NCBI GenBank assembly: GCA_012845835.1
Contig: JABAKD010000005.1
Location: forward strand, 1,027,075-1,091,074
Source: Undaria pinnatifida
Lineage: Eukaryota > Sar > Phaeophyceae > Laminariales > Alariaceae
DNA length: 64,000 nucleotides
Direction: 5' to 3'
Part shown: one piece after another, positions 8,781-55,791 of the stretch
How positions within the stretch are numbered: the stretch's first letter is position 1
Layout of the letters: every line of letters starts with the position of its first letter
Made by a program: the position numbers and the translations under genes
Notes under the pieces: generated by a model
Told to the model about the DNA's origin: nothing
The model's input: only the letters and a program-made list of their open reading frames with translations
The model's database searches: none

Positions 8781-8849
8781 GTGAGCTTCGTTCGTTTTCA
8801 TGGTGTTATTGTATGCGCATGTGCATGTGTATGTGTATGTGTATGCGTA

Positions 8850-8910
<61 letters not shown>

Positions 8911-11900: not shown

Positions 11901-14900
11901 TATTCGTAGGGGTTATGACTTGGCTGATTATATCTTGCCAACTAGGTTTTTTTAGTTGGGTCGTCGAGTAAACCACATATAACGCTCAATTCCAAAACGA
12001 TGACGGGCGTAGCCATTGTCGAGAAACAAATATGTGGTCCGAAATGTGGAGTCCTACCTCTTCGGGCTGCGGGTGGGGTGAATGAACGTCGCGGCTAGCT
12101 TCTGGCTAGGTGGCAAGCATACCAACTACCTGCCTTACCGGACGTTGTTCTTGAACATCGCACGTCACGTCGAGTCGAAAAAAAAAAAAGTTGGACACAC
12201 AGCCGTCAACGGCAGGGGAATCTACCCTCAGTAGGTGCAAAAGAGGTAGTGCTGCTCTATCTCTGTCCGACCAAAATGTCCACCAAACCAATACCCTGAC
12301 AGTACCCCGAGGGTTTCAAACAGCGACTCAACTACTATAGCAAGAGTCGCTCGGGCGAGGGAAGTGCCGGAAGTGCACGTAGGCTTGCTGACGTGAAGAC
12401 ATTCACCTGGTAAGTCGTTAGGTTTGTCAGAATATCCCCGCTAAGCGCTGCAGCCCTTGCCAGCCACCTCCAGATGGTGTACGATAACATTTGCAGTCAC
12501 AAAGGCGTGGACTCTTCTGGAATCCACTTGGAGGCTGTGTTCTTCGGAGATAATGGCACCGGCTTTGGGTGGGTAGGAAGAGTGGGGATGAAAACACACA
12601 CAGTGCTTAGCATTGACACCGTCGACATCGCCATCTCCAGCCCAACACATCCCACCAAAAGTCGCCCAAAAAATAGGTTAGGGACATCTCTTCCTGTCCT
12701 TTTTTGCAATTTTCATTTCGGACCTTTTTTTTCCGTGTGGGTTGGTAGGCGTTAGGTCAAAAATGGTCGTCGGTTCCAGTACCACTTCGACGTATTGTTA
12801 CCCTACCCGTATGTTTTGTCTGAACCCAAGCGATTTTGGCGGTCGCAAAACACCGTGGACCAAAAAAACATGAGAATAGCGGTTTTGTCGACTGTCTATA
12901 ATAGGAACAAACAGCGTGCAAGAATACGTACACATATCACCGTGCCGCGCGCTCGTCTTCCACCTCTCGTCAAAATGCTACAGTTGCGGCACGTTTCAAA
13001 CCCCAGCAGCCACGGTTGCGTCATACAGCCAAGCCAAACCTGTAATCAAGCCATTTTCTTTCCACTTTTTTCGTCACCTCTTTTTCACCTCTTATTTTTT
13101 TCGATTGGAACTCCCGAAGGGGTTAGTTCGGTCGGTCTAGCCCCTTCACAACTGCTCCCGTGATTTAGAGGACAGACAACTTGAAGTTAGAGGCGGTTCC
13201 ATGATTCTCGTTGCAAAGAGCGCTAACCCCTTTACAACTGGAAACCCGTTTTTGGAGACAAAGTTACTTGGATTTAGTATGGAGAGGGTTCGGGGGCTCT
13301 AAAACCCCTTTACAACTGGAAACCCGTTTTTGGGGACAAAGTTACTTGGATTTAGTATAGAGAGCGGTTCGGGGGCTCTAAAACCCCTTTACAACTGGAA
13401 ACCCGTTCTTGGGGACAAAATTACTTGGATTTAGTATAGAGAGGGATTCGGGGGCTCTAAAGGGGTTAATCTCCTCCGACCCCCAAAACCCCGCAGCTTG
13501 TTGGTTCTCTGGGAGCTGCACATTCATATTTTTCGCTCCTTCCCGCGCAAAATGTTCGCCATTCTTCTACCCTCTTGGGACTATCTCCCGCTTCACCCTA
13601 CCTTCTCCACGTTCAACCTCACAGCGTATGGGCCTCTCTGTCTACCGCTACACACCTTCGCCGTTGTCTCACCCCTTCCCATAGTATCACGCCATATTTT
13701 TTCTCGATTTAGGAAAGAAAGCCCTCCCCTTTTGTCTCCCCCTTTCTACACGAGCGGTTGCAACCTTCTGCGCTCTCTGAGGCTAGAGGAAACGACTTCT
13801 CTTCACCGCCCGTTGTAACCACGGTGGACAAAAAACACGTAAAACATCGCTCTACCCATGCCTTCAGAGATAAACTACTTGGAATTAGAGTAATATCGTT
13901 GCCTTTTTGAAGCGGTGAAAGGGTTACCCCGGCGTCTTGGGGACTAAACTACTTGAAATTGGAGTAGGATCAGTCTTTGGCAGCAGCGACAGGGCTACGA
14001 CCACAACCTTGTATTCGGGGGTATGTTACTTGAAATTAGAGCTGAAATTAGAACGCCTGCTACGATCGAGGCAGTGTTTTTTTTGTGGAAAAAATATTTC
14101 CTGAACTTCGGGAGTCCTTAACCCAATTTATGATTTATACGTACCTAGGCCATGGGATGCGTGTTGCACTTTCAGTTCAACTCAAGGTCCGGTTGTGGGT
14201 GGGGTATAGCGTAGTTTATCAAGTAACCGCCGCCCCGACAAGGGAAAGGGTGTACCTCCGCAGTAAGCCACAGTACATCAAGGCTACGGTGTTGTCGGTG
14301 TTACGTCATACCCGCATGTTGTTCACTGGCAGGTTGACGCTGCATTAAAAGTGGCATTAAAAGTAGCATTAAAAATAACAATAAAATCAGCATTAAAAGC
14401 AACATTTATTGCGACACTAGAAGTAACAGTACTCGTACGAGTGACTTTGTTCCTCAACGACGAAAATGCTTTATTCAGGCGGTCGGCTTGGCGAATCGCA
14501 GCTTGCCAGTCTCATTGGGGATATAATGTCGCAACGTTCAAACCAACAGCGACCCCTTTAGAGCCCCCAAATCCCTCCCTATACTAAATTCAAATAAAAT
14601 TGTCCCCAAAAAGGGGTTCCAGTTGTGAAGGCGTTAATGCCGCAAGAAAATACGGGGGTCATTCGCGCGCGAGTGCGCCCCGAGCCTCCGCAGAAACGGC
14701 CTCTAAACAACGTAACCCCACCCCCCCCCACCGTCTTTCGCGAGGTTTCCTCATGCTTGGAGGTCTCCTCAATTTGGGAGAGCTTGGAGGTTTCCTCAAT
14801 TTGGGAGAGCTTGGAGGTTTCCTCTGCCGAAAACTGATTCGGAGAAGAACAAAACTGTTGCCTACCGGATGAAAATTCCCATGTACTAGGGCTAGAACAC

Positions 14901-17900
14901 GACGAAAAAATCATGCAAACAAAAAAAAATGGCACTTTTTTTCCCACGACTTCGGGGTTAAGAAGTCCCGTCGTTCAGAAAATATTTTCACCAAAAAAAG
15001 GTACACCTCTATCGCAGCACCCGTGGAAAAAAAACTACCGCCTACCGCCTACCGCCTACCGCCTGCCGTAGCTTTGGCTCGTACCACGTGTTCTCGGACA
15101 TAAGCTGCTTGCAAATAGATTAAGAGTGATTATCGCAATATGTAGTCGGAGTATTCAGCCGCGGCAACGACAGCGCTCTACCTACGTTGCCGGAGAGAAA
15201 CTACGCCAAAATAGATCAAGATTTTGTTTTTGCAGTATAAACAGTCGGGTTGTTGGCCCGCAGCAACGACAGCGCTCTGTCCACATTGCCGGAGGTAGGC
15301 CTCCTAAAACTCATTGGACGGATGCTTAAAAAAACACATGTATTCGGGTTATTCAACCACGGCAGCGACAGCGCTTGACCCACATTGCTGGAGTAAAATC
15401 ACTTGGACATTGGCGAAATTCTACTTTCTGCAGTAGTAGTCGAATCCTTCAACTTTGGCAACGGCTGCGCACTATGTACCCACATGTTCGCGGATGAACT
15501 ACTTGAGCTTTCACCAGGAATGTGTTTTTTTTTGCGGCGCGAGGTCAAATGTTTAACCCCACTCTCTTCCCCCCCCCAAAAAAAAAAAAAAAAAACGCAT
15601 CTTCTTCGCCTTCAGAGAGACCACCTCAACCAATTTTTAACCTTCCTTACAGAATCTCTATTAGCAGGCGTTTTTGCTACCTACAAGGCTACCTTCCCCA
15701 CTGGCCACCTACTTCCCGAGTTAAAACGTCCCAGCTTTTTCTCTCTCTGACGCTACCTCCATCTTTATACCCCACCCCATTCACTAGACTTCCCATATCT
15801 TTTCGTTCACCGACAGGCTACCCTCGCTTTGCTAGTCTACCCTTCCCACACGAAACATCCCAAGTTTAGTGTCTGCCGAAGACTAATTCCATAATTCCTT
15901 CCCAACTTCCGTGCTCTCTGAGACTTTAGAGCGACTAGCTTCTCGCCACCGCGGGCGTACATAGGGTCTAGATAATCTCTATGATTTAGACGATCTATGT
16001 GATCTGTCTGATCTAGACCTTCATCTGCCCGATGTGTCGCAAATATCTTCCTTCTCCCTACTGGTGCCCTTCTCCTTTGCCCCACCCCTTCCCACGATAA
16101 ACGTCGCAGCTTTTGCGCTCCCTGAGACTAGAGCGAGCAGCATCTCGCCACCGCCACCGCAACAACAGCGCTGGCTCCAGCAGGCGCGCGGGGGGATCCT
16201 CCATACAAAGCATCGGAAGCGACGGCCGCCCGTTCTCCCCCCCTGACGAATGGGATGACACCGGAATATTTTCGGCATCTTTAAGGCCAAAAACCGTCCC
16301 TTCCAGAGCAATTTCTCCGAAAAAGGTTATTGCCGGGCCACCAGCCGGCCGGCAGCGGCTGCGACAGCGGCAGCAACAACAACAGCAGCACGCGTTTGTG
16401 GCACCTGCGATCTCTGGATCTTCATCTTCCTTCCCCGTCGGGCAGGCGACGTTGATTGCCCGCCCTGTCACGTCCGCCGGTGGAGATGACACGGGGTCAA
16501 GTAACGCGGCGGGTCAGGATAAAGGGTGCGCTAGTACGGACGGGTTTGATCTGTGGAACAAGAGGAGGCGCAAGGTAAGTGGGGGGAGGGGGGGGAAGCG
16601 GCCATTCCGAGGGAGGGCCTCTTCCATTTGACCAAGACTACGGTTTGGGATGAGTGCTACTATAAATAATAGCGCTATAGTCTAGAGGTATGCCTTTTTT
16701 TGGCTAGTGGCTATGATTCCGTTTTGTGAATGACGGGCCTTTGCCTTTTTTTTGGCTAGTGGCTATGATTCCGTTTTGTGAATGACGGGCCTTTGCCTTT
16801 TTTTTGGCTAGTGGCTATGATTCCGTTTTGTGAATGACGGGCCTTTGCCTTTTTTTTTTTTTTTTGCCTCCTTGACCCAAAATCGTCGGAACGTTTCGTT
16901 GAATACCTGTTAATAGGTTAGTAGTGTAGGCCATGGACCTTTTTCACCGACTGGCGCTTTTATTTCCCGAAAAAAATGTTTTTTTTCCCTTCTCAGAGGT
17001 GTATTATAGTATGATACCGTAGCATTGTAGTGTTAGTATAGTATTATAGGGTATTGTAGGGTATTGTAGGGTATTTTAGGGTATTGTAGGGTATTGTAGA
17101 GTATTAAAGGGTATTAAAGGGTATTGTAGGGTATTATAGGGTATTATAGGGTATTATAGGGTATTGTAGGGTATTATAGGGTATTGTAGGGTATTATGGG
17201 GTATTATAGGGTATGATGGTATTATCATAGTATTATTATATAGTATTATAATATGTTGTAGGGTATTATAGCATTATAGTATTATAGTATTATAGTATTA
17301 TAGTATTATAGTATTAGTATAGTATCTTTAGTATAGAGATCCTCAGGCGAGGAGGAGTAATACGAAAAAAAAAATGGTTGATTCACCTCTATCGCAGCCT
17401 GCGGCAATTTCAACCATTGTACCGTACCGTACCAGTTAATTTGAAATGTTTTATTTGGCGGGGGGGGGGGGGGGGGGACGTACTCAGTTGTTGCGTTTCT
17501 TAGCCATTTGACCATACCATACCATACCATCGACCACGCACCCCTTTCACACCCTTTTATAACCTTTCACACCCTCTCACACCCTTTCACACCCTTTCAC
17601 ACCGTTTCACACCCATTCACACTCTTTCACACCCTTTCACACCCTTTCACAACCTTTCACACCTTGGATCTCTCGTACGCTAGTGGGGGCCCTGTGTTGG
17701 AGCCTGTTATTCCCGCCGCCCAGAGTCTCTAACGCGCACGTCCATGTTATCGAGGACCAGGGCAATTTTTCTTCTTTTGATTAACGGCATGTACCGATAT
17801 CGAATTATTTCATGTACGCTCTCGCGTTTGACTCTGTTACAGGGCCATTGGCGCTATTGAGGAGTGGGATAAACTCGGTACCGAAAAATAGTGTGCAACC

Positions 17901-39332: not shown

Positions 39333-39383
<51 letters not shown>

Positions 39384-48300: not shown

Positions 48301-51300
48301 CCGTACGACCTTCCTACATGGAGAACTTTGGTGTGGTCGAGCGCCGACGATGCTCGATTTTTACCTCGGATGAAGGGTCGGCGAGAGTGAACCGCTTTCC
48401 CGGCAAGGGGGACACTGATCGAGACATTGAAGAAGAATGGTTGAAAGCGCTGCAAAATATCGTCGAGGAGAACGAGGTGAATTATTGTTGTATGATCGGC
48501 TGCGAAGCAAACATATTGGTTTAAGGCGCTTTCGTTTTATTTAGTATCGCTCGTTCTTTCCATCATCTGAACGAGCCATGGTCACCGGTGTCATCCCTTT
48601 CCCCCCCCGGCATGTGCCTTCATTTCCACTGCGCGGAAGGCTCAGCATTACTTTTTCCCTAGGTGTTTCACGGCTCATGACCCGATCCGAGGATCGGGTC
48701 AGGAGGCTTTCGTATCCTCGTGGATCGAGCCGGGTCGGGTCAGGAAGTGCTCACAATCTCATTTGATTGGGTCGGGTCAAGAGGTGTTGAAATATCACGG
48801 GTCGGGTCGGGTAGCCTTGGCCCGACCCAACCCACGACAAGTGATTCGACCCGTAAAAAGTCTTGTTTGTTTTCTGTTCTTGCCCTTTGACGGACAGCTG
48901 TCATGGATCTCGCCGAAAACCAAATATCCCCATGCTAGACACAATGCTAGTACAGGGGCGGTCTCCATATCGTACCGATATATGCCAGTCAACAATACCG
49001 GCGCAGTAATCCGGACACCGGCATTATCGGGTATACTCCCGATACTGGCACTGGTATAACGGGTTCTCATCGTGCCAAGCAATTTCACCGGCACTATACC
49101 GGTAGTAGGCACTATTCAACCGGCACTATAGAGAGCCCCCCATCGCATATATATGCCACTATGTCAAGGCCTTCACATCGGGAAACCCCCACTGTATGCA
49201 AATAATGTGAAGGCCTTGACAGGACGAAATTACACCATCAAGACAGCCGTCAAAGACCTCCTTGTATTGTAACTAGTACTTTAAATCTAGAAGTGTCTTG
49301 ACGGGAAAAAGCCCAGACCGTCAACACGGCCGCTGAGGACCTGACCCCATTAAAACCAGTAGAACAACTCTGAAGAGGCCATGACGGCACAAACCTAACC
49401 CGTCAAAATAGTCGTCAAGCGCCTCCCCACATTAACCCTAGTACAACAGATCTAAAGGTGTGTTGAGGGGACAACAAGAAAGACCGTCACACGACGTGTT
49501 TCCGTGGAGTGGAAGTCAGCAGCTGTAGGCGCAGTGCCTTGGTAACATGAGGCGACAGATGGCAACGTTTTCGGGAAATCGAACTAGCGTGCTCTGTCCT
49601 CGCAGTAACTTGTTGAGGAAATGTAGTCCGTGGTCACAGGACAGACACTAAAAGAACTCCGGAGCCAGAGAATACCTCTGAGTGACATGAAAACAAAACA
49701 TTTTTCTAGCGCCGACGGATAAGGTTTTACCACAAAACCCTCCGTCAAATAGACGCAAGCCTAATACTCGTATAGTCGCTTTTTTGTCGTTAAATTTGTT
49801 TTCGGTCCAATGTTCCCAGCCTGCGTTTGTGAAGCCCAAGCTTAGAATAGGGTTCGAATAATTTATTTTCCTTCCCCCGGGCTCTGCGTTGTCCTTACAA
49901 CGTGACCGTCGCGCCGTCCATCAAGTTCCATTCGATGGTACTTCAAACTGGGTGCTGTCGTGCTGTGTTATTTTCGCGTGTATCGTAGAGCTAGGCTGGC
50001 GTACGCTGTGTCCCCAACGGGGCAGCTACGGACGCGACTTGGACCAAGAGCCGAATACGTTCATAATCGGGGAAAAGGCTACTGTAGAGTGTGTAGAGTG
50101 TGTACTCTCGTCTTTACTACGGAGTTTGAGCCACTCCCGCGAATGGCTCTGCACGAACTCCTAAAATCTTTGTTGGGTCAGTATAACAACCACTTCCATG
50201 GCGTTGCACATCGTGAAACCCCGAAAGGCGCAAGATCTTACCGCGCCAAGAGAGAGGGTAGGCAATCGCACGCGTGGCTTTTAGGTAGGGGAATGAACGT
50301 AACAGCCTAAATATAACTCTCTTACCGTGACACGTGGTCCGTGATGTTTTGTTAGTCGATGGAAGGCGTATAGAGCATTCTCTGCACGGCTTCATAGTTG
50401 GTGAAACGCGCATAGAGCACTCTTTGGAAGGTTTCGGGGGCCCCGCGAGCTGATTTCGACCCTACCCCTAACCCTATCCTCACTCCTAGCACGTAATATG
50501 TACAATGGCAAAGGTGATCCACTTGACGGAGCTAGGAAAAGTCACCGGATGGTGTAGACTATGCATTAAATGCTTATCTCAGAACCACACCGCTACTTGC
50601 CTGGTACTGTGGACGCTCGTCCCCTTAAACAAATCGATGAACAGATTGTTTTACCGATTTAATTCGTATAGTCTAGCCCTTACCATGTTTTTTTACTTCA
50701 TTACTCATCACGGCGAAGGTAATCGACTTAGCGGAGCTCGGAAAAACCATCGGAGTTCTTCCACGAGGAGCCGCTGTATTGTGCCTTGCCCACGACTGCC
50801 TCGTTCAAGACGCGGGGGGACTAGAAGGGTTCGTCAGATCCGAAGTTCTGCACTCTGCTACCATGGCGTTGGTAGCACTACGTCGAGGAATCCGAGCACA
50901 AGGAAAAAAACGCGTTTCATCGGCCGATGCATGCCTAGATAGAGACATACAATCGTCACCTATCTCCGCGAGGGGGGGAATATGCTCACGAGTGGGTTAT
51001 CCTGCGAGAACCGGCTCCATGATCGTCTCGACAATCGCCGAATTGGAAACGAAAGCAGAACTGGATGCTTATGGAGAAGAAGTGTGCGATGATCTCTCCA
51101 TGATTTTTTCACGCCCCGTTGGTGGCAATGCATCAGCTGACAAATCTCAGACTCCACGTATCCGGGCCGCACTACAGAAGCATGAGGCACTGCTGTCGCC
51201 TCAGAGTATCTGCGCTCTGACAGCGTTGCTTTCGTTCCGTGGAGGGCAATTTCTCATCTCCAGTAGCAACGGCAAAAGCGCTGGTGGTTTTCGCGACGAT

Positions 51301-54300
51301 TCTCCATCTACTGGAAACCCCGCGGATTGGGTACCGTTGTTGTCGGACGCTCTACTCGCGGTGCGTATGGCCTCGCTTGAACATGTGGCGATGTGGGCGA
51401 ACGCGTGCGATCCCGGGACAGTTGAGTCGGCGTGCAATGCACATGGTTCGGCTTTGGCAGCAGCAAGAACTGCGCCGGGGTGCAACCACACACATATGCC
51501 TGGGGTAGTAACAGCAGTAGGTGAGCCAGCGTGCAACCCACACGCATCGGCTGTACCTGCGGCAGGAGCTGAGCCAGCGTGCAGCACACAAGCATCGGCT
51601 GTAGCAGCAGCAGACGCTGAGTCAGCGTGCAGCACACAGGCGTCGGCTGTATCAGGACAAGCTGAATCAGCGTCCAACACACACGCGTCGGCTGTAGCAG
51701 CAGGAGGAGCTGAGTCAACGTGCAGCGCACGAGTATCGACTGTAGCAGGAGGAGCTGAATCAGCGTCCAACACACACGTGTCGACTGTACCAGCAGAAGA
51801 AGCAGCAGCAGTTTCCAGCGTCGAGGGGGCGGGTGATGACGGCATCGGTGCCATTTGGGCAGGGCTACACAGGACGTCGGGGCTGGGACTATCCCCACTG
51901 ATGCTGCTAACGGCCACCTTGTGCCCGTTCGATAATACACCACAGTTCGATACTAACCAAAATTACGGAGAAGGTCAAAATTTTACCCCTGAAGGCAGCA
52001 AAGGTGTCAACAATGCCCCACCTGTTGGCGTCGCCTGCTCCGCGTCAAGCTTAGCGCGAACACTGCTACGGCTTCTTTCATCTCAGTTTCTCGGAAACCT
52101 GTTCTCCCATCTGTCGAAGCGATGCCAGACCGCGGCCACTGCCAAAAGAAAGTCCGAGGCTGGGAGCGACGACCACCACCTAGATAGGCACGAGATCGAT
52201 GCCACAGGAAACAGTGAGGCCGGGAGGTCCGGTGATTATCCAGATGGCCGCAAGATCGGTGCGACCGAGGTGGAATTTTCTGATCTTCCAGGGCACCCAG
52301 CCTTGGACGAGTTCTCGCGCCTCGACGGGGAGACGGTCAAGAGTGAAGCGCGCGGGGTGATCGCGTTGTTGGACGCTAGGGATACAGGGGCATTGCCTCC
52401 TGCTGCGCTTATGGCTGCTTTGCAGTGCGGGAAAGCGGGGTTCCGCCTGGAGTCTCGTCAGGCGCAGGTTGTGCTTCATCTTGCCGGTGGGTTCTGCGCC
52501 TCCCCTTTATGAGCGACATCTCATGCTTGAAAGGAACTTTGAAACGCATGCTTCCGGCGGTCAGTATTGTTTTTCTTGCATAGAATGGCTACAAATGGCT
52601 TCTATCTGACAATACCCAGCATGAGCCTCAACATCGAGCACTCGTGAATACATTCCTAGAGACGAGAAAAACAGGAGACGCCCAGAAACGAAGGCTGACT
52701 CACTTCCCTACCTACTTCCGGTTCTCTTTCAGGGTGCCTTGGTGAGCGTGCTGGCCAATCTAGGCCTTCTAAAGCAGATGTCCACACTGCGGTTATCGAA
52801 CGAGAAGGTGCATACTGCTACCTCGGGCACCCACCAAAAACCCACTCAGCGAGTTACGCGTGCCTGATGGACAAACTCCCCGGTCTGCTAAGGTTGGTTC
52901 AAGCTGCTCATCGGGTAGGGCAAACGTCTGAGACAAATTTAAGGAGCAAGCCTCGATACTTGGGATGGGACGCGCTGGAGATGGCACGAAAAAACAGGCT
53001 TCGATTGGCGGTGGAAAGCTCAATGGCCACGTTTGCGACGGCACTCGAAGCCGTAAACCAGCGAATGGGTGAGCTAGAAGATTATGACGGTCGTTTGGTG
53101 TTCTGTGATTCGACACCAAGGCTTCACGCTGTCGGGTGGAAATTCACTATATAACAGGTAGCAGTTGATATCGCTTGGGCACCATCTAACACCACGAATG
53201 ATTCGGAAAACCTAGGAACCTTAACGTAACTCGTCTCTTAAAGTCAAACATGTGTCAAGTGGCCGTTCGCACGCGTACGACGTTCCCTTTTTCAACGCCC
53301 AGAACCCAGGATTCTTCCCACCGCAGCATATGTCGCAGTCCTGTAAAGCTCCAATCACCTATTTTCCCTGAGACACCGCCCCCCCCCCCCCCCCCCCCCG
53401 CCCGCCCTCCAACCTCTATTGCCCCCGGCTACCCAAAACTCCCCTGTGACAGCCTACGGACGGCTCGAAAGACGGTCCTTGACACTGGAACAACGCCGAC
53501 TCGAAGCAGCGCGTCTTTTGTCTGCACAAGCTCACCAGAACGCTTCCACTGCCCAAAATTCACGTTCGAGGGAAAACAATCGCCGAACAGAGCTTAGAGA
53601 AAAGTTCACCGCTGCTAATTTGGAGCGAGTCCTATCCGTGAGTGCTAGTAGTCCGCCAATAGTGGCGGCGACTGCTGCTAGGATATCGGCGACGACTGAA
53701 CTGTGGGACGCGGGAGGGCGGGCTATGGTGCAGGTGGGTGGGACGGGGGGAGGTGGAGGGGGGTGGAGGGCCGCCAAACGTTCGAGATAGAATATCTGGA
53801 GAGTATTTTTCATTTTTCGTTTGTATCTGGTTATGCTGACTGTGAGAGAACTATGGTTTATATCAAGAATGATTATATCACTATTTCCGGGAATGTTATT
53901 GACTGACCGACTTTCAAGTCCGGTCCAGATTTTGAGCTTTAAAGTTTTGACAAGGTCAGATTTTTTTTGTAGTTGGGTGAGCTTGCGTCCAAAAATTGAA
54001 GGGAACGCCAACCGAATGTTGTAGTCTGGCGCCGCGAAGAGATGCGCCGATTGTGCTGCACTGGGCGCCGGACCCAAGCGTCCGAGCCCACGGTGGCGGC
54101 CTCTAGTCTGGCAGAAAAGGAGCGCGCCGAGTGCACTCAATCTGTCTTGGAAGAGTGCATTTTGACGCAATGAAGCGTCCAAGCCCAACACGCTGATTGA
54201 TCAACTGCTGCTGTCGTGTACGAGTACGTATCGAATGAATGGCGCGCGCTGAGAGCGCTTTTCTTGGGCGCTAGATGCGAGTTCGCGCCAGCCGACTGCA

Positions 54301-55693
54301 GTCTGGCCGCGGAGTGACGCGCCGATCGCATGCGCAGGGCAATGTCGCTGTGTCACCATCTAAGTCACCGAACGTTTTTCTGCTGCATCTGACGAGTTGG
54401 ACCATCGCATTATCATAAATATCGAACAATGCCATGGTCCGAGTTTACCCATTCCAACTGAGGAATCAAGTGCTTTCTTTTATGCGGCCAAAAACCATAC
54501 CTGAAGCTCCAAACCGGATCGCATCGGAAACAGCCTCATGCTGCACATTGCCGGAAGGTAAACGTGACAACAACAGAAGGAGGATCTTCTCGCAACATTT
54601 CTTGTTATTTTTACATGCACGGATCGCTTGATATCTTTCGATCAGGTGCGTGAAACGTTGGCGACGGCAGGGAAAGGGGCGGTCAAAAGAAAGTCGGTCA
54701 ACAAACTTTAGAGATCAAATGTGTCCAGGGCGTTAATCGGTCGGGGTTGGAGGCGTTACGTCTGCTAGTTTAGTCGATGCAAGATGTGACTCAGAAAGAC
54801 GATGCGCCTCTTACGGCATTTCATATCGCACCCCCCCTCCACGAAATGAATTACCTCCCACCCCCCCCCAGAAAATATTAACTAATTTAATTACCTTACC
54901 CCCCCCCCCCCCCCCGCTGAAAAATTGCCTACTTACTAAACCCCCCTCAAAAAGTAAAACTTACGTGATGAATTTCAAAATGGCATCTCCCCCGCATATG
55001 TGATAACACCAACCGGTCGCCCCGGTGGCGTATCAGGTTATCTTCGACCCTGGTATAGGTCAGTTTCGTGAGTTCGAATCCCCCCGAGGGCATACTCGTA
55101 TAAATTCGTGGGGACTTTTTCTTGTGCACAAATTGACTTGCGGAAAGCGCGAGAGCGTGAGTTAGCAACACTCGATAAACAATCGACGAGCAATGGGATT
55201 GATGAACCCTATGCGCGATAAAAGTTGAAGGCAAGAGCCGGGGGGGAGAAGGGACGACACCTGTGCCCACGGCTTGTCCAGAAGCTGGAAAGTAAATGTG
55301 TGTGAAAAAAAAACAAAAAAGTTACAACACCATATCGCCTCTCTCGAAAGTAGAAATTGCACAATTGTCCCTTCCCCCCCCATATACTCCAAATAGTATA
55401 GGGTTATCAATGAGTGAAAAAAATCAATGTAATACTGTGAAATTTACCTTCGTACCGTATTTCTGTTGTGACCAACGGATCGTCCAATTTTGTTTCCCGA
55501 CCAGGCTCGCGAAATTCTGACGACAACGGTGAGAAGGCTGGGCGAAGCACTGGTGGAGGCAGAAGAACAGCTCAGGGAAGACGAACACCACATGTGCGGA
55601 AGCTACCTTAAGCCACCCCGTCCAAGATTTGATCAATTATGGACGGAGTTCCGAAAAATCACGACAAGTCCGAAAAATCACGAGAAGAACTAG
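8691..55693 (+). CDS. Giant multi-exon coiled-coil protein gene, about 2,200 residues
   Basis: Proposed exons with phase in/out: 8691-8780 (start/0), 9574-about 10150 (0/?), 16110-16574 (0/0), 19930-20085 (0/0), 22802-22948 (0/0), 25547-25639 (0/0), 25718-25810 (0/0), 28888-29021 (0/2), 33030-33119 (2/2), 35271-35361 (2/0), 36059-36217 (0/0), 38188-38315 (0/2), 41040-41193 (2/0), 43232-43335 (0/2), 45041-45142 (2/2), 46862-48476 (2/0), 50719-52486 (0/1), 52733-53068 (1/1), 53453-53733 (1/0) and 55505-55693 (stop). Each exon is open, bordered by AG and GT, and rich in Glu, Arg, Ala and Gln as expected of coiled coils. Phases match at every junction from 16110 on, but I picked between alternative donors at 35361 and 48476. 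The 3' border of exon 2 is unresolved, and early exons could belong to a separate gene. The family is not recognised. A cytoskeletal or flagellar scaffold is possible, on composition only. Confidence 0.62.
8807..9075 (+). repeat. TGTATG microsatellite in intron 1
   Basis: A nearly pure TGTATG hexanucleotide array at 8821-8910, followed by a degraded TGTATTTG/TGTATG mix to about 9075. Confidence 0.95.
9574..10185 (+). CDS. Exon 2, Gly/Ser-rich N-terminal region
   Basis: The frame enters after TATGAAG as GDLSCAITDAVSDYVRLRGL, then NNLCPDVKKWSPPPG, and continues as a Gly/Ser/Asn-rich, probably disordered region with an eight-Gly run and phospho-like sites (KRSNSIPSPTWEM). An acceptor at 9528/9529 would add 15 residues in the same frame. 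The right border is uncertain. The frame stays open to TAA at 10185. The best-looking donor is CTAG/GTGGGT after 10156 (phase 1), which would need an unseen exon before 16110. Weaker phase-0 donors follow 10044, 10080 and 10146. If none is used, 8691-10185 would be a separate two-exon gene of roughly 235 residues. Confidence 0.6.
   Translation, partial: GDLSCAITDAVSDYVRLRGLNNLCPDVKKWSPPPGPAAYLDAGLPKISGDASVPRGLLLASYPPATSKGNHGGGFGSTAGTRPSGAASKDNDCGISGSGNEMHCSGTSENYPCGENRRGGGGGGGGTQKGVGMGLKRSNSIPSPTWEMKGPEGFNSQVLSFDDDAAAEMVTVSADAGTREDGGNLGSGSGLVSLGGSSPKRWS
10186..13225. other. Intron or intergenic stretch with no recognised gene
   Basis: Low-complexity C-rich tracts (11480-11540, 11660-11710), homopolymer A/T runs and otherwise unique sequence. 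The block 12441-12755 is open in several frames on both strands without splice signals and is not called. Confidence 0.45.
13226..13466 (+). repeat. Tandem array of a dispersed 78-79 bp repeat (three copies)
   Basis: The unit starts CCCCTTTACAACTGGAAACC, contains AAGTTACTTGGATTTAGTAT and ends CGGGGGCTCTAAAA. Starts are at 13226, 13305 and 13384. Inverted copies lie at 14552-14640, 18958-19145 and 30505-30590. Confidence 0.85.
13600..15955 (+). pseudogene. Array of decayed copies of exon 3 (exon at 16110)
   Basis: The best copy, 13760-13812, reads CTTCTGCGCTCTCTGAGGCT and still encodes NLLRSLRLE, compared with LLRSLRLERAASR at the intact exon; its acceptor AG is lost. Further copies are near 13602-13648, 15711-15755 (ACGTCCCAGCTTTTTCTCTC), 15838-15870 (intron flank only) and 15895-15952 (GTGCTCTCTGAGACTTTAGA, with in-frame stops). 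The upstream C/T-rich acceptor tract (CCCTTCCCACGATAAACGTC at the intact exon) is duplicated with each copy, so exon plus flanking intron was copied. A second, unrelated tandem repeat occupies parts of 13850-14060 and 15050-15520. Confidence 0.65.
15085..15510 (+). repeat. Degraded tandem repeat of about 100 bp
   Basis: Four units share GCGGCAACGACAGCGCTC-like and ACATTGCCGGAG-like words followed by an AAACTACTTG-like word. The same AAACTACTTGAAATTAGAGT word recurs near 13876, 13947, 14025 and 38042, linking this array to the 79 bp family. Confidence 0.6.
16110..16574 (+). CDS. Exon 3, basic Ser/Gln-rich region
   Basis: The acceptor GTCGCAG/CTT and donor AAG/GTAAGT are both strong. There are 155 codons, phase 0 on both sides. 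It begins LLRSLRLERAASRHRHRNNS and continues through SIGSDGRPFSPPDEWDDTGI, SLRPKTVPSRAISPKK, a Gln run, and ends GFDLWNKRRRK. It is rich in Ser, Arg and Gln and probably disordered, with a basic C-terminal patch that could act as a nuclear-localisation or binding motif. Its 5' part is repeated as fossils upstream. Confidence 0.72.
16693..16860 (+). repeat. 52 bp tandem repeat, three copies
   Basis: Three near-identical units of GGCTAGTGGCTATGATTCCG followed by TTTTGTGAATGACGGGCCTT and a T run, ending in a 16-base poly-T. Confidence 0.95.
17020..17325 (+). repeat. GGTATTRTAG decanucleotide satellite
   Basis: About 20 units of GGGTATTGTA/GGGTATTATA, grading into shorter GTATTATA units at the right end. 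Confidence 0.95.
17460..17478 (+). repeat. Poly-G tract
   Basis: A run of 19 G. Its length is likely to be unreliable in assembly. Confidence 0.9.
17541..17665 (+). repeat. CACACCCTTT decanucleotide satellite
   Basis: About 12 units of TTTCACACCC with few substitutions. It is pyrimidine-rich, so it could act as a decoy splice acceptor tract inside the intron. Confidence 0.9.
18395..18640 (+). mobile_element. Dispersed non-autonomous repeat, copy 1
   Basis: Shares in order the words CTTCTGAGTGAGGCACAAGC, AGGTTCAATCCGAC, GGCCCAGGTATCAGAA, AAAACAAGAATCGCATTTTA, GGGGTTAATG and GCCGAAAAGTGGTAT with copies at 20235, 21690, 22225, 23500, 30275, 35515, 56335 and 62920. No coding sequence. Ends and target duplications were not resolved. 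Confidence 0.5.
18870..19710 (+). pseudogene. Four decayed copies of exon 4 (exon at 19930)
   Basis: Copies begin near 18878, 19246, 19430 and 19640. Copy 2 reads FGGGTGDDAVEFPDIREA, against FGGGTGDDAVEFLDIREA in the intact exon, then hits a stop. Copy 3 reads FAGGTGDDAVEFPDI. Copy 4 is frameshifted and copy 1 is more diverged. None keeps the sequence GTTGGTAAGC that continues the intact exon. The segment upstream of the acceptor (CTCGTG...ATTGCCCAG) is copied too, so the unit is exon plus intron flank. Inverted copies of the 79 bp repeat lie at 18958-19145. Confidence 0.72.
19930..20085 (+). CDS. Exon 4, acidic then Ala/Arg-rich helix
   Basis: Acceptor TTGCCCAG/TTT, donor AGG/GTAAGG, 52 codons, phase 0/0. 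It reads FGGGTGDDAVEFLDIREAAL then VSVAEAFARRALPWQAQLCP and RALQDMEIARVR. An internal TTG/GTAAGC after 19989 is an alternative donor, also phase 0, giving a 20-codon version. It is the most downstream and only intact member of a five-copy array. Confidence 0.7.
20235..20430 (-). mobile_element. Dispersed non-autonomous repeat, inverted copy
   Basis: Contains TAGAGGTACGTACCACTTTC, TCTTGTTTAGCAAAAC, GGTATACCTAGGCCATGGGG and GTTGCATTTTCAGTTCACTC, the reverse of the element at 18395 and 30275. Confidence 0.5.
21690..21900 (-). mobile_element. Dispersed non-autonomous repeat, diverged inverted copy
   Basis: Contains GAGGTACATACCACCTTTTT, TTGTTGGAATACCCAGGCCATG and the CTCTTCAAGTGGGATGCCTTC region, matching the family at 20235 and 14130. 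No coding sequence. Confidence 0.45.
22225..22400 (+). mobile_element. Dispersed non-autonomous repeat, partial copy
   Basis: The words ACCAACCACTTTTTTTTTAC, TATGCCTTCTGAGGCAACAT and AAACTGAAAGTGCAACCCGA match the left half of the copies at 30275 and 35515. Confidence 0.45.
22695..22740 (+). pseudogene. Decayed copy of the start of exon 5
   Basis: GCAAGTGCTTCATGCCACTG matches GCAGGTGTTTCATGCTGCTG at the acceptor of the intact exon 100 bases downstream. The copy has lost CAG (now CAAG) and decays after about 35 bases. Confidence 0.55.
22802..22948 (+). CDS. Exon 5, coiled-coil segment
   Basis: Acceptor CTTGCAG/GTG, donor GAG/GTAGGT, 49 codons, phase 0/0. It reads VFHAAEGGRQAKAKARQEAL, LRGLLIREERSREMFARGQG, then GLFEGALIE: a basic/acidic amphipathic helix followed by a Gly-rich loop. 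Confidence 0.75.
23500..23605 (+). mobile_element. Dispersed non-autonomous repeat, right-end copy
   Basis: GATGATTTGGGGGTTAAGGA, CCCAGTCATTCAGAAAA, CCAAAAGCGCTACCTC and ATCGTAGCA match 62980-63050, 14949-15020 and 30585-30650. Confidence 0.5.
23925..25060 (+). repeat. Degraded tandem repeat, unit about 250 bp
   Basis: Units near 23945, 24170, 24425, 24690 and 25000 share GGCGATACGCGATACATCCG-like, TCTGTTCGATAG-like, GACGTATAGC-like and AGCCATGGTCGCACACTCTT-like words in the same order. The centre copies (24170 and 24425) are the most alike. The array lies in the intron between exons 5 and 6. No coding sequence is apparent. Confidence 0.65.
25547..25639 (+). CDS. Exon 6, 31-residue coiled-coil repeat unit a
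   Basis: Acceptor TTGGCAG/ATC, donor GAG/GTAGGT, exactly 31 codons, phase 0/0. It reads IKGFIKRSEAAHAKELSSWM then GERRSRLQRAE. It is the first of three tandem copies, and the next copy has the same length and borders. Confidence 0.78.
25718..25810 (+). CDS. Exon 7, 31-residue coiled-coil repeat unit b
   Basis: Acceptor GTGTTAG/ACC, donor GAG/GTAGGT, 31 codons, phase 0/0. It reads TSGLAKRSEAAHAAELSTRV then ETMHSRLQRAE, about 65 percent identical to exon 6 at the protein level. The equal length and symmetric phase show a clean tandem exon duplication. The intron between the two contains long G tracts. Confidence 0.78.
25880..25976 (+). pseudogene. Third, broken copy of the exon 6/7 unit
   Basis: Acceptor TATTCAG/ATC and donor GCGGAG/GTAGGT are kept and the end GGTTGCAACGGGCGGAG matches exon 6. 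The body is 97 bases, so the frame is shifted, and it has an in-frame TAG nine codons in. Splicing it in would truncate the protein. Confidence 0.72.
25977..28887. other. Intron 7, no recognised exon
   Basis: Mostly unique sequence. It has a TCT microsatellite at 27250-27280 and short TAACCCT-like words at 28750. An open frame at 26461-26811 has an acceptor-like TTTGCAG but no donor or family similarity, and is not called. Confidence 0.4.
28888..29021 (+). CDS. Exon 8, coiled-coil segment
   Basis: Acceptor TTCGTAG/GCG, donor CCAG/GTGAGC, 134 bases, phase 0/2. It reads AEEERTKTALDRWIQIFNGS, RARFDAFDSLEAAGRRVLSS, then EENAR (split codon). The last 40 bases and the donor are repeated three times downstream in decayed form. 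Confidence 0.75.
29170..29655 (+). pseudogene. Three decayed copies of the 3' end of exon 8
   Basis: Copies end at 29251 (CCTATGAGGAGAACACTAG/GTGAGT), 29446 (TTCCGAGGAGAATGCCGG/GCGAGC, donor lost) and 29655 (GACCGAGGAGAACGCCAG/GTGAGC). The intact exon ends TTCTGAGGAAAATGCCAG/GTGAGC. The following intron words (CCACTTTATCACCGCC, GTGCCGGTTG, AACAACCAGTGGTGG) are repeated with each unit of about 200 bp. Two relics keep usable donors but have no matching open acceptor half. Confidence 0.7.
29838..30268 (+). repeat. 19 bp minisatellite
   Basis: About 22 units of GACCTTCGACAGTTGAAAT with ACACTT and ACAATT variants. The unit length is not a multiple of 3, so three units make a 19-residue repeat and the minus strand looks like a long protein. 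That reading frame is an artefact. Confidence 0.95.
30275..30480 (+). mobile_element. Dispersed non-autonomous repeat, copy
   Basis: Contains AGGTTCACCAACCATCGTGT, TTCTGAGGGTCCTCCTCACT, AAACTGAAAGGGAAGC, GACCAGGTTATACATGAAAA and TTTGCAAAACAAGAGTG. It parallels the copy at 35515 and is followed at 30505 by a copy of the 79 bp repeat. Confidence 0.5.
31754..31821. repeat. Perfect 22 bp inverted repeat
   Basis: ACCTATGTATCTGTATCGAA-TA at 31754-31775 and its exact reverse complement at 31800-31821, with a 24-base loop. The next 30 bases (GGCGCGACTGTATGCGCAC) have a direct copy near 32047 (GACGCGACTATATGCGCAT), so the hairpin sits at one edge of a 220 bp duplication. Confidence 0.85.
32247..32579 (-). 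CDS. Candidate antisense intronic coding fragment, possible small membrane protein
   Basis: A 110-codon minus-strand frame with two hydrophobic segments near the N-terminus (MFCGALLIC; VYLIIQFAGFLAINLC), then a soluble-looking stretch CPPGYEVDPIPREDLARRMV and a hydrophobic AAPYAAYLLLPKYGPTVIG. The composition is more protein-like than the other minus-strand frames. No splice sites or family were recognised. It lies inside the proposed intron between exons 8 and 9 and could be a nested gene, a mobile-element remnant or chance. Confidence 0.28.
   Translation of the reverse strand: MWCSMFCGALLICTRLARSGWTCGFEGQVYLIIQFAGFLAINLCQYAPRECPPGYEVDPIPREDLARRMVLAAPYAAYLLLPKYGPTVIGAEEPTLLPIVNKCILIQDNM
33030..33119 (+). 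CDS. Exon 9, coiled-coil segment
   Basis: Acceptor AAACCAG/G, donor GAGAG/GTAAGG, 90 bases, phase 2/2. It reads CECIAAQIAEDDGLRAVEDR then SEECTRSRER. The codon rebuilt with exon 8 is AGG (Arg). The acceptor tract is weak. The 3' end is repeated downstream. Confidence 0.6.
33120..33560 (+). pseudogene. Decayed copies of the end of exon 9 and its flank
   Basis: CAGAGAGAAGTAAGAACACG (about 33180) and CAGAGAGAAAGTCAAAGCAG followed by GGGAGAGGTAAAT (about 33360-33395) mirror the exon end AAGCAGAGAGAGGTAAGG. The following flanks (CTACGATGACGCGATAAAAC versus TTACGACGAGGCGGTATAAT) are also duplicated at about 190 bp spacing. Confidence 0.55.
33880..35270 (+). pseudogene. Array of decayed copies of the start of exon 10
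   Basis: At least eight units of roughly 105-220 bp carry a word like GAAGGTACTTGAGCATACTG-CAGAC: near 33896, 33998, 34100, 34615, 34705, 34805, 34920 and 35085. Between them is a C-rich segment (CCCCTGCCTCTCACAAATGC) that resembles an acceptor tract. The copy at 35085 is the closest relative of the intact exon, also matching GACAAGGACGAGCGAGAG and GAGCTGTGGAACCTG, but has an in-frame stop and frameshifts. Confidence 0.7.
35271..35411 (+). CDS. Exon 10, coiled-coil segment
   Basis: Acceptor GTGAAG/G, phase 2 in. It reads YLSILQTVWEADKNEREVSE, ELWNLQGWLS, then VGSHKLVQQTLRAFVR. Two donors are possible: TCC/GTGGGT after 35361 (phase 0, fits exon 11) and CGAAG/GTGCAG after 35411 (phase 2, would need another exon). 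Both could be used. It is the last and only intact member of the array that precedes it. Confidence 0.65.
35515..35785 (+). mobile_element. Dispersed non-autonomous repeat, copy
   Basis: Starts GTAAAGGTGCACCACGTGTG and contains TTCTGAGGCTCCTAACCACT, AACTGAAAAAGCAACCCGAT, TTTTGGGTTCATAAGG and CAGCCAAAAAGCGAAAGG, in the same order as at 30275 and 22225. Confidence 0.5.
36059..36217 (+). CDS. Exon 11, Ala/Arg-rich coiled coil
   Basis: Acceptor TTTTAAG/GCG, donor CAC/GTGGGT, 53 codons, phase 0/0. It reads ATSLLWEARNAAEFAGAARA, TAATQRATEARSIASTRRDR, then RIVVRKHKEELLH. No fossil copies were noticed around this exon. Confidence 0.72.
36218..38187. other. Intron 11
   Basis: Holds a full inverted SINE (37208-37505) and a segment at 37560-37650 (GGGACGGAGCGCGTCGGGAT, ACCGACCAGGCAGGCATC) whose relatives lie at 18030 and 44845, pointing to another dispersed repeat. 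No exon was seen. Confidence 0.5.
37208..37505 (-). mobile_element. Full-length tRNA-derived SINE, inverted
   Basis: Read on the minus strand: a head with an A-box-like GGTGGCGTATCAGGATATCC and a B-box-like GAGTTCGAATCCCCC, then a body (ATACTCGTATAAATTCGT, GAGAGCGTG, CCCTATGCGCGATAAAAATT, CCATGGCTTGTCCAGAATCT) and an A-rich tail. It matches the copies at 43948 and 55017 along its whole length. RNA polymerase III transcription and LINE-driven copying are inferred from the class. Confidence 0.85.
38188..38315 (+). CDS. Exon 12, coiled-coil segment
   Basis: Acceptor TAAGCAG/GCG (or three bases earlier), donor GAAAG/GTTTGA, 128 bases, phase 0/2. It reads AEEERATSEDAARSRAFGQA, IKELKASNVSRREDIEAQLR, then RER. 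The donor is weak. A second, diverged copy lies 500 bases downstream. Confidence 0.7.
38535..38632 (+). repeat. 48 bp direct repeat, two copies
   Basis: GTCCATCGGAGTCCACTTCG plus GAGTATTTCAGGGTTTCTGA, repeated once with few changes. Confidence 0.85.
38675..38817 (+). pseudogene. Second, diverged copy of exon 12
   Basis: AAGGCTTCCAATGCTAGCAG and CCCCAACTCCGTTTCAAAAG/GTTAGA align with the intact exon end. The frame is open (KASNASRRDLVEPQLRFKR), but the N-terminal half has lost its charged heptad character (RIIITSIRKGGKD). With an acceptor at GCAG/G it would be phase 2/2 and could be inserted without shifting the frame. It is more likely decayed than used. Confidence 0.5.
39319..39452 (+). repeat. 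ATC trinucleotide microsatellite
   Basis: ATCATC array with GTC and CTC interruptions. Smaller relatives are at 32664-32712 and 34366-34385. All three follow the same flank (GAGCTC, then a word like CAACATGAGGAGCTAAATAT), so the microsatellite is part of a dispersed repeat. Confidence 0.9.
41040..41193 (+). CDS. Exon 13, coiled-coil segment
   Basis: Acceptor GGACAG/C (or GAAG/G six bases earlier, same phase) after a C-rich tract, donor GAG/GTAAGG, phase 2/0. It reads MFAARQEETDRCALFRKEIA, ALAADLDVEMERLASALQAR, then RLEEEELSEAE, with clear heptads. Confidence 0.8.
41213..41345 (+). mobile_element. SINE 3' fragment just after exon 13
   Basis: CGAGCCATGGGAATGCTGAA, GACGCCTGTGACCACGTCTT and GTTCAGAAGATAGGATGTAA match the tail half of the SINE at 43948. 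The insertion sits 19 bases past the donor. Confidence 0.6.
41538..43170 (+). pseudogene. Seven decayed copies of exon 14
   Basis: Relics begin near 41538, 42251, 42459, 42588, 42723, 42870 and 43118, at a spacing of about 130-150 bp in the later part. Each keeps a word like GGTGTCTGCGGCGGTAGCTT then GAGGAAGAAGCACGAGCATG, seen in the intact exon as GTGTCTGCGGCGGTAGCTTC and GAGGAAGAAACAAGAGCGTA. Each is preceded by a relic of the same acceptor flank (CTAGCATGTAGATGCCTGTT) and followed by CATCAAGGCAACAATCGACG-like intron. Stops, frameshifts and lost acceptors break them. Confidence 0.75.
43232..43335 (+). CDS. Exon 14, coiled-coil segment
   Basis: Acceptor GATATAG/GTG, donor GACAG/GTGCAT, 104 bases, phase 0/2. 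It reads VSAAVASLQEEETRAYDREA then LLGETMLAERDNED. It is the most downstream and only intact copy of an eight-member array. Confidence 0.75.
43731..43936 (+). repeat. GGTACTATTA-type degenerate decamer repeat
   Basis: About 20 imprecise units of GGTA(G/C)TATTA/GTTTGGTACT. The SINE at 43948 is inserted at its right end. Confidence 0.8.
43948..44246 (+). mobile_element. Full-length tRNA-derived SINE
   Basis: The head CGCCCCGGTGGCGTATCAGG carries an A-box-like TGGCGTATCAGG, and the B-box-like GAGTTCGAGCCCC lies about 50 bases on. The body matches 37208 and 55017, with a poly-A tail at 44235-44246. AGGTACT just before the head and AGGTACT right after the tail look like a target-site duplication. 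Confidence 0.88.
45041..45142 (+). CDS. Exon 15, coiled-coil segment
   Basis: Acceptor GTCGCAG/T, donor AAACG/GTGAGG, 102 bases, phase 2/2. It reads HLEAWIQQQEREGAAAFAQG then IADASRQLLEDRK, with the last codon CG+G (Arg) completed by the next exon. Confidence 0.75.
45540..45662 (+). repeat. Tandem duplication of about 50 bp
   Basis: TACCCGAGTATACCAATAGC plus AATCAGTTGTGGTACCCAAG, repeated with two mismatches. Confidence 0.8.
46680..46861 (+). pseudogene. Upstream duplicate of the 5' end of exon 16
   Basis: CTCGTACAG/ATGGGTTGCTGTC aligns with CTCGTGCAG/GTGGGTCGACGAC 171 bases later. The copy reads WVAVTNGSTSDTSQAGVSFL against WVDDVNDSTSIISHADASFL. It keeps the acceptor and phase but runs to a stop at 46876. 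Used as the acceptor, it would truncate the protein. Confidence 0.65.
46862..48476 (+). CDS. Exon 16, large exon: Thr/Pro-rich region plus coiled coil
   Basis: Acceptor CTCGTGCAG/G, phase 2 in. After WVDDVNDSTSIIS comes a Thr/Pro/Asp-rich stretch, then two repeats (HGTFTQHPRPLEQHNNVEA and KGTFTQHPPALGQPKKLEA). A coiled coil follows (AQKRINRAESLAVLAQEESE, KTRLTAEADEAAAKRWAAQQ), then a long low-complexity acidic region and a C-terminal helix (IEEEWLKALQNIVEENE). GAG/GTGAAT after 48476 joins exon 17 in phase 0. If not spliced, the frame ends at TAA 48524 with a Cys-rich tail unlike the rest. A shorter isoform ending there is possible. Confidence 0.75.
48575..48660 (-). mobile_element. SINE tail fragment, inverted
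   Basis: GAGCCATGGTCACCGGTGTC, TGCCTTCATTTCCACTGCGC and GGCTCAGCATTACTTTTTC resemble the SINE tail at 37240-37330. No head is present. Confidence 0.5.
48675..48850 (+). repeat. GGGTC-rich segment related to 57970-58290
   Basis: Scattered GGGTCGGGTC words with AATATCACGGGTCGGGTCGG, matching the flanks of the pure GGGTC array at 58093. The end is mirrored (GACCCAACCC, GACCCG), giving partial inverted-repeat potential. Confidence 0.6.
49162..49221. repeat. Perfect 17 bp inverted repeat
   Basis: TGTCAAGGCCTTCACAT at 49162-49178 and its exact reverse complement at 49205-49221, with a 26-base loop. Confidence 0.85.
49205..49490 (+). repeat. Degraded tandem repeat, unit about 100 bp, three copies
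   Basis: Units share words like CTTGACAGGACGAAATTACA, CCGTCAAAGACCTCCTTG, AACTAGTAC and TCTAGAAGTG at about 49215, 49312 and 49400. The hairpin at 49162 abuts the left end. Confidence 0.65.
50505..50560 (+). pseudogene. Decayed upstream copy of the start of exon 17
   Basis: GGCAAAGGTGATCCACTTGA-CGGAGCTAGGAAAA aligns with GGCGAAGGTAATCGACTTAG-CGGAGCTCGGAAAA at the intact exon 200 bases on (AKVIHLTELGK against AKVIDLAELGK). After about 45 bases the copy loses similarity and its frame ends. Confidence 0.65.
50719..52486 (+). CDS. Exon 17, largest exon: repeat array and EF-hand-like segment
   Basis: Acceptor GGCGAAG/GTA, donor TTGCCG/GTGGGT, 589 codons plus one base, phase 0/1. It begins VIDLAELGKTIGVLPRGAAV with a compact Ala/Leu-rich domain and LETKAELDAYGEEVCDDLSM. 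At 51417-51800 a tandem protein repeat follows. The C-terminal part has TLLRLLSSQFLGNLFSHLSK and LDEFSRLDGETVKSEARGV, then LLDARDTGALPPAALMAALQ. The last resembles an EF-hand loop but lacks the final acidic residue, so calcium binding is doubtful. If the donor is skipped the frame ends at TGA 52512. Confidence 0.77.
51417..51800 (+). repeat. In-frame coding tandem repeat of 45/48 bp
   Basis: Six or seven units of 15-16 residues, consensus ESACSTQASAVAAAGA, with variants EPACNPHASAV, ESASNTHASAV, ESTCSARVSTV and ESASNTHVSTV. All unit lengths are multiples of three, so copy-number change keeps the frame. Confidence 0.9.
52733..53068 (+). CDS. Exon 18
   Basis: A strong acceptor (CGGTTCTCTTTCAG/GG) and the donor ATGG/GTGAGC give 336 bases, phase 1/1, open throughout. 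The end (MARKNRLRLAVESSMATFAT, ALEAVNQRM) is helical and clearly protein-like; the start is less so. A rival reading uses frame GALVSVLANLGLLKQMSTLR-LSNEK with a donor AAG/GTGCAT at about 52807, but its phase does not fit its neighbours. Because phases are 1/1, the exon can also be skipped in frame. Confidence 0.55.
53453..53733 (+). CDS. Exon 19, coiled-coil segment
   Basis: Acceptor CTGTGACAG/CC after a long C-rich tract, donor GTGCAG/GTGGGT, phase 1/0. It reads YGRLERRSLTLEQRRLEAAR, LLSAQAHQNASTAQNSRSRE, NNRRTELREKFTAANLERVL, then a less helical AATAARISATTELWDAGGRA. An internal TCC/GTGAGT after 53637 is an alternative donor, also phase 0. Confidence 0.75.
54026..54330 (+). pseudogene. Repeated exon-like fragments in the last intron
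   Basis: Three copies near 54026, 54100 and 54298 share a word like AGTCTGGCAGAAAAGGAGCG followed by CGCCGAGTGC. The middle one reads SLAEKERAECTQSVLEEC before a stop. GACCCAAGCGTCCGAGCCCA is also repeated as GCAATGAAGCGTCCAAGCCC. They look like fossils of a coiled-coil exon with no surviving intact copy nearby. Confidence 0.5.
55017..55320 (+). mobile_element. Full-length tRNA-derived SINE in the last intron
   Basis: Head CGCCCCGGTGGCGTATCAGG, B-box-like GAGTTCGAATCCCCC, body as at 43948, A-rich tail to about 55320. AACACCA occurs just before the head and again just after the tail, a likely 7 bp target-site duplication. Confidence 0.88.
55505..55693 (+). CDS. Exon 20, terminal coiled-coil exon with stop
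   Basis: Acceptor TTTCCCGACCAG/GCT, phase 0, 62 codons plus TAG. It reads AREILTTTVRRLGEALVEAE, EQLREDEHHMCGSYLKPPRP, RFDQLWTEFRKITTSPKNHE, KN. No GT in a donor context follows the helical part, so reading to the stop is the simplest model. Confidence 0.72.
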   Translation, partial: AREILTTTVRRLGEALVEAEEQLREDEHHMCGSYLKPPRPRFDQLWTEFRKITTSPKNHEKN

Positions 55694-55785
55694 AGAGCGC
55701 GCGCGGCCGACGTAGCACAGCACGCAGCTTACAAAGCTGAATGAATATTTACAAAGCTCAATCGGTCACACTCAGAGCTGACGTA

Positions 55786-55791
55786 AATAAA
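55786..55791 (+). terminator. Possible polyadenylation signal
   Basis: AATAAA, 93 bases after the stop of exon 20. It supports 55693 as the gene end, although stramenopile genes do not strictly need this hexamer. Confidence 0.4.

Follow-up and report, generated by a model that had tools for sequence, protein, structure and literature searches.

Why should exon after exon of one gene stand beside decayed copies of its own edge? The question is raised by a 64,000-nt stretch of the Undaria pinnatifida genome (hereafter the window; 49% GC), in which the original prediction, made from the letters alone, had placed tandem copies of an exon border and its adjacent intron at eleven exons of a single gene. 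As suggested by our analysis, with a probability of about two in three (0.66), the introns in the central 40 kb of this gene grew via repeated local tandem duplication, and exons frozen by selection kept the old copies recognisable.

The gene and its relatives

One plus-strand gene is carried by the window and continues past its right end. The 24 exons lying inside the window (89 to 1768 nt in length) hold 2411 codons in consistent phase with no stop, and are separated by 23 introns with a mean length of 2062 bp. A first gene model (15 exons, start at 9568, acceptors at 16132 and 40956, stop at 53154) was replaced because orthologs revealed additional exons and other acceptors. Joined and used as a protein query, the first model retrieved eight proteins (six of Ectocarpus, one of Scytosiphon promiscuus and one EukProt entry), and tblastn of five ortholog proteins against the window added, among the matches listed, the exons at 8691, 11735, 26574, 36059, 45041, 53453, 55505, 57790 and 63237 and corrected two acceptors to 16110 and 41034. 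The Ectocarpus and Scytosiphon proteins match the gene nearly exon by exon, with uneven support, E7a, E21 and E22 being poorly covered in the aligned orthologs. Exon E8 (26574-26696) fits the orthologs; of the donors listed for it, the sole one in phase is a GC instead of a GT, and P0022 is without E8. The exon 50719-52486 alone as a query retrieved P0001 (96% identical) and eleven remoter relatives.

No Pfam family scored above the cutoff for the first model, P0015, P0018 or P0021, and P0022 carries PF04258 in its precomputed annotation. The PDB sequence search with P0021 as query found no relative, and no homologous DNA was found in the viral_contigs or genome_contigs searches. By eye, the middle of the protein looks coiled-coil-like. 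In the literature searched, as judged by titles and abstract openings, there was no paper on this gene or on kelp intron growth through tandem duplication. Two observations on the relatives stand by themselves. In P0022, a 41-residue stretch matching E20 is present twice, in tandem and identical; either the gene has undergone a further recent duplication there, or the assembly or the annotation is at fault. The 981-aa open reading frame of P0006 spans both E17 and E18, so that the 2242-bp intron between them (48477-50718) seems to be absent from P0006 or read through in frame.

Copies of the exon borders

Each border was represented by a segment of 60 bp of intron and up to 90 bp of exon, which was compared with 1.5 kb on either side under a sensitive scoring (match/mismatch 1/-1, direct score of at least 20 as a pass, short-period arrays masked). 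The 24 exons gave 48 such segments, 35 of them in the core of the gene (11-52.7 kb, bounds that were set after viewing the match positions) and 13 outside it. In the core 15 of 35 segments passed directly, against 0/35 as reverse complement and 0/35 reversed, and among all 48 segments neither type of control reached a score of 20; in introns, reverse-complement controls do pass (9 of 182 core tiles). The copies are restricted to the core, with 0/13 border segments outside it at score 20. The passing segments belong to 12 of the 24 exons (E3, E4, E5, E7a, E7b, E9, E10, E11, E13, E15, E17 and E18), and with 200 dinucleotide shuffles 13 of 24 exons, the same list and E6, had a border above all shuffles. 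No local border copy was detected at E1, E2, E8, E12, E14, E16 and E19-E23. Furthermore, where a border in the first model carried a relic, its own flanks outscored the flanks of other exons, and self-comparison at score 50 or more gave 28 direct and 6 inverted local matches (<1.5 kb).

Tandem copies of exon borders are thus confirmed as real and well above chance. Chance or low-complexity similarity does describe two border matches that were dropped, a G-run at the E4 donor and an intronic 13-mer at the E16 acceptor, and the matches of E6 and E10 are weak and may yet prove to be of this kind; for the main set this explanation is refuted by the 15 direct passes with short-period arrays masked and no control passing, which leaves it a probability close to nil. 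Ten of the eleven exon entries of the original prediction passed the sensitive test, 22802 (E6) being weak with a score of 19, and the background comparison that it had asked for, 28 direct against 6 inverted matches and no border control, came out in its favour. Exon E3, which was missing from that list, carries border copies as well. The claim that the exons of one gene are concerned applies to the core only, since the 5' end (E1-E2) and the 3' part (E19-E23) are without copies. The relics and their exons are collected in Table 1; an early E6 candidate at 22017 was dropped in favour of the one given there.

Table 1. Exons carrying local copies of their borders, and the copies, in window coordinates
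Feature	Position	Strand	Basis or remark
Brown-algal gene, 24 exons	8691..63338	+	exon model and orthologs P0015-P0022
Exon E3	11735..11877	+	gene model
E3 acceptor-border relic, upstream	11408..11450	+	score 32; 30 with sensitive test
E3 donor-border relic, downstream	12216..12254	+	score 33; 21 with sensitive test
Exon E4	16110..16574	+	gene model
E4 acceptor-border relic, distant	13721..13810	+	above 2000 shuffles, region picked post hoc
E4 acceptor-border relic, short	15724..15750	+	alignment
E4 acceptor-border relic, AG lost	15900..15952	+	82% identity
Exon E5	19930..20085	+	44/52 residues identical to P0018
E5 acceptor-border array, five relics (18657, 18871, 19231, 19420, 19643)	18657..19707	+	75-92% identity
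Exon E6	22802..22948	+	gene model
E6 acceptor-border relic, weak	22679..22728	+	above 2000 shuffles, region picked post hoc; sensitive score 19
Exon E7a, 93 nt, phase 0-0	25547..25639	+	gene model
Exon E7b, tandem duplicate of E7a, intact and in frame	25718..25810	+	82% over 84 bp
Third E7 copy, broken: in-frame stop and 4-bp indel	25884..25983	+	splice-like borders present
Exon E9	28888..29021	+	gene model
E9 donor-border relics, three (29230, 29402, 29640), and intron copies between	29230..29667	+	alignment
Exon E10	33030..33119	+	gene model
E10 donor-border relic, weak	33351..33392	+	narrow pass, score 22
Exon E11	35271..35430	+	37/54 residues identical to P0018
E11 degenerate acceptor-border array, at least four relics (34000, 34618, 34922, 35068)	33827..35162	+	alignment
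Exon E13	38188..38315	+	gene model
E13 donor-border relic	38762..38823	+	79% identity
Exon E15	43232..43335	+	gene model
E15 upstream degenerate array, with acceptor-border relics 42719 and 42863	42212..43112	+	alignment
Exon E17	46862..48476	+	gene model
E17 acceptor-border relic	46656..46788	+	passes sensitive test; earlier pass gave intronic 15-mer only
Exon E18	50719..52486	+	gene model
E18 acceptor-border relic	50507..50549	+	found also 5' of same exon in P0001

The position of the relics relative to their exons is regular. Outside the E7 array, each of the seven acceptor relics is found upstream of its exon and each of the four donor relics downstream (11/11). A partial tandem duplication must leave such a pattern as long as an intact exon survives; hence machinery recognising splice sites is not needed. 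Under the reading that we favour, a duplication that starts and ends within an intron would only lengthen it, while one with an end in an exon would leave an intact exon at one side and, in the intron, a truncated copy of its border; this copy would lie upstream when the acceptor end is copied and downstream when the donor end is copied. Unequal exchange or slippage would then multiply some relics, giving arrays with as many as five copies. In each of the five E5 relics between 37 and 60 nt of the 156-nt exon are represented, and this shared truncation suggests one founding event followed by growth of the array. At the DNA level, we infer break repair or slippage as the mechanism.

The relics were said to carry stops, frameshifts or lost splice sites. 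A stop in frame is found in the E11 relic 35068-35162, and both a stop and an indel in the third E7 copy, but the loss of splice sites is partial: 13 of 19 scored splice dinucleotides are still AG or GT, counted without two sites that the alignments do not cover, without E3 and the E4 donor, and without E6, whose candidate had been replaced. This retention, along with the splice-like borders and in-frame stop of the third E7 copy, is what might be expected if the copies were working alternative or poison exons under selection. Such a role is nonetheless very unlikely for the set, as relics outside E7 hold just one exon border and therefore cannot be ordinary cassette exons, 13 of 19 is near the expectation from 75-85% identity, and in E5, E11 and E15, though not in E9, of the four truncated arrays compared, the relics average more unique changes than their exon.

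A complete exon with both splice sites and an open frame is represented by E7a and E7b only, all other relics being truncated or broken. Both are 93 nt long, in the same phase and with intact splice borders, and since 93 is a multiple of three they can be included together; the E7 unit is single in the orthologs P0016, P0018 and P0022, with P0020 and P0021 ambiguous at this place. Judged from its sequence, E7 was duplicated in frame with no sign of constraint: pN between E7a and E7b is 0.24 and pS 0.23, on just 31 codons, and because the two values are nearly equal the open frame may be due to chance. The third E7 copy could act as a poison exon if it were spliced in. As regards a mutually exclusive cluster, two intact in-phase copies occur at one exon of 24. 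On the preferred reading of tandem duplication, the unit would rarely span a whole exon, and in that case, as at 25547/25718, yield an extra in-frame exon. The proposal that the gene gains exons locally and discards most of them therefore stands in a reduced form, in that exon edges are copied locally and most of them decay, with E7b as the one in-frame duplicate.

Spacing of the copies and duplication inside introns

Many of the distances between neighbouring copies cluster near 190 bp, with 171 and 166 bp at E7, 187 and 170 at E11, 204 at E4, 205 at E18, 168 at E17, 185, 213 and 215 in the E5 array and 197 and 223 in the E9 array. Other spacings lie off this value (282 and 367 in the E5 array; E3, 325 and 368; E6, 101; E10, 268; E13, 502; E15, 357 and 508). 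The same distance emerges from pairs of identical 9-mers in the core: at lags of 150-175, 175-200 and 200-225 bp there were 31, 48 and 27 direct pairs against 5, 5 and 6 inverted ones, in total 106 direct and 16 inverted at 150-225 bp, and beyond 1 kb direct and inverted pairs occur at about equal rates. The profile was made with minisatellites (units of about 18-93 bp) masked, and as these are also frequent, the peak describes only what remains after masking. The proposed duplication units would thus often measure 165-225 bp, along with shorter minisatellite units.

Repeats of other kinds are present in the window. Minisatellites fall outside the exons, except for one at 51420-51803 inside E18, with a unit of about 48 bp that keeps the frame and a similar run in P0001. 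A dispersed repeat of about 300 bp is found in both orientations at 37207-37506 (-), 43943-44243 (+) and 55013-55313 (+), these long copies being 88-92% identical, with fragments at 3084-3229, 41203-41323, 48556-48647 and 57104-57196; it is probably a transposable element. A dispersed motif of about 80 bp, likewise in both orientations (13224-13469, 14552-14637, 18947-19144 and 30509-30589), is locally amplified into arrays of 49 and 79 bp.

Exon borders are not unique targets of duplication. When exons were masked, a local direct copy was found for 45 of 192 intron-only tiles in the core, where 9 had an inverted one, and for 3 of 65 tiles in the remainder of the gene (Fisher p 2.5e-4 for core against remainder, tiles that are not independent). 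Borders are enriched over these core tiles (15/35 against 45/192; odds ratio 2.45, p 0.017). The suggestion of a mechanism that keeps copying splice-site regions is therefore not required, introns being duplicated likewise, and what it retains is the enrichment of borders.

The enrichment might indicate that exon borders are preferred duplication sites, for example because nucleosomes on exons, or R-loops or breaks at splice junctions, cause units of about 190 bp to begin or end there. In favour of this reading stands, beside the lag peak at 150-225 bp, a rotation test in which 16 exons were rotated within the core (with approximate starts for E8, E12 and E14) and exons with a border inside a duplicated stretch were counted: at w=4, 10 of 16 exons were hit versus a mean of 3.04, and 0/5000 rotations reached 10. 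The count was 9 at w=5 and w=6, and the excess dropped at w=10 to 5 versus 2.67 (p 0.10). A part of the excess is to be expected from decay alone, since pairs inside introns decay on both sides and exon-relic pairs mainly on one, so that the latter stay recognisable longer. In simulations of this survivorship, in which exons do not decay, constant-rate models (five settings with 16 runs each) gave means of 1.4-2.9 border-hit exons with a maximum of 6 and no excess. Old-burst models matched in coverage (four settings, 64 runs) gave means of 5.2-6.3 of 16 exons (range 2-9) against 2.6-3.4 on rotation, an excess of 2.3-3.0 versus the observed 7.0 exons (about 40%). Such a match requires duplicated sequence to make up about 28-30 kb of the 39.7-kb core. 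Simulated coverage was 0.10-0.14 at score 30 or more, the observed value being 0.124 at 32 or more, and there were 70 observed matches of at least 30 versus 47-60 simulated ones. At higher-coverage settings (0.175-0.83) some runs reach 10, but rotations rise too.

Survivorship thus does contribute to the exon preference; detection bias as its sole cause was rejected, as the simulated excess falls short: over half of the exon excess is unexplained by survivorship bias alone in these simple models. A true preference for exon edges on top of general duplication is accordingly possible. Preferred borders as the main explanation seem to us rather unlikely nevertheless, in view of the 45 intron-only tiles that are duplicated too, of the 0/13 border segments outside the core, of the loss of significance at w=10 and of the simplicity of the simulations. 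A more specific version, in which the lineage duplicates in nucleosome-sized steps (about 165-225 bp), biased to exon edges by exon-positioned nucleosomes that site breaks or nicks, is less likely still and is offered as a speculation. If it were true, introns would extend away from their exons, with truncated splice borders as a regular by-product that now and then gives rise to a new exon.

Age of the relics and length of the introns

The relic-bearing exons have counterparts in the Ectocarpales, in the same order in Ectocarpus or Scytosiphon proteins, and hence the exons are older than the relics. In general repeated local duplication would leave relics that decay as intron, with selection holding the exon nearer to the original sequence. 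Unique changes in the exon part of the E11 array number 5 for the exon versus 15 and 16 for two relics, and in the intron part 7 versus 9 and 6. The exon has 1 unique change in the E5 array (relics 7, 0, 1 and 5) and 7 in the E15 array (relics 12 and 9); in the E9 array it has 6 (relics 5, 1 and 4) and is not the most conserved copy. Moreover, the E9 relics mostly resemble one another more (27-30 of 40) than they do the exon (24, 29 and 24 of 40), as would be seen if exons had arisen by exonization from older intronic repeats and the relics were the parents. The same-order counterparts of the relic-bearing exons argue against such an origin, which we regard as highly improbable. The stretch of the E18 relic matches P0001 at 47 of 56 residues and a mostly exonic stretch at 583 of 613; being shared with P0001 and less alike than the exon, this relic predates the split and changes faster.

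Longer introns in the window are also apparent from the relatives. The Ectocarpus protein P0019 (1968 aa, partial) is encoded on a contig of 16,027 bp versus about 30 kb for the matching window stretch, and P0017 (1309 aa, partial) on one of 6,880 bp versus about 14.7 kb. Published mean intron sizes agree in direction, with 1,057 bp in Saccharina japonica versus 703 bp in Ectocarpus siliculosus (PMC4421812), while a newer assembly of S. japonica gives 1,816 bp (PMC11836290). We infer that the introns here grew mainly through tandem duplication.

How introns lengthen without the help of transposons mostly escapes view, because after a piece of intron is duplicated the two copies decay alike. 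Exons frozen by selection act as clocks and landmarks, by which duplications at one locus become countable, datable and sizable. If the genes of this lineage are generally alike, tandem duplication would rank among the main causes of intron lengthening and would provide raw material for exons in measurable amounts. The confinement of the copies to the middle of the gene raises the question of what made this stretch prone to duplication.

Comparison with known systems

Tandem gain of exons within a gene is also described for the brown-algal ROCO genes, whose LRR exons are shuffled (PMC11378527, citing Zambounis et al. 2012). As characterized in that source, the exons of ROCO genes are uniform LRR modules of 72 bp in phase 2, on which diversifying selection acts, whereas the exons of the window differ widely in length and none is a 72-bp exon coding for one LRR, as judged by exon lengths and Pfam. 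Unlike the ROCO modules, the relics match only their own neighbouring exon, in a gene for which no Pfam family passed the cutoff.

Small tandem duplications from break repair, as presented in PMC8355091, share with the window the local head-to-tail arrangement and the independence from a prior repeat. In contrast, they are recent and small insertions of less than 100 bp, while those of the window are old, often 165-225 bp, with junctions too old to type.

Tandem exon duplication in animal genes, in the cases considered from PMC9013439, concerns exon copies tied to alternative splicing, while here mostly truncated borders are found. The same paper reports copies at 80% identity or more for about 2% of exonic bases in human and 0.08% in fly, a measure unlike the border test used here. 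In both settings, copies of an exon and its adjacent intron lie locally within the gene, with a direct copy adjoining the exon, and some of the animal copies are, as here, unannotated and situated inside introns.
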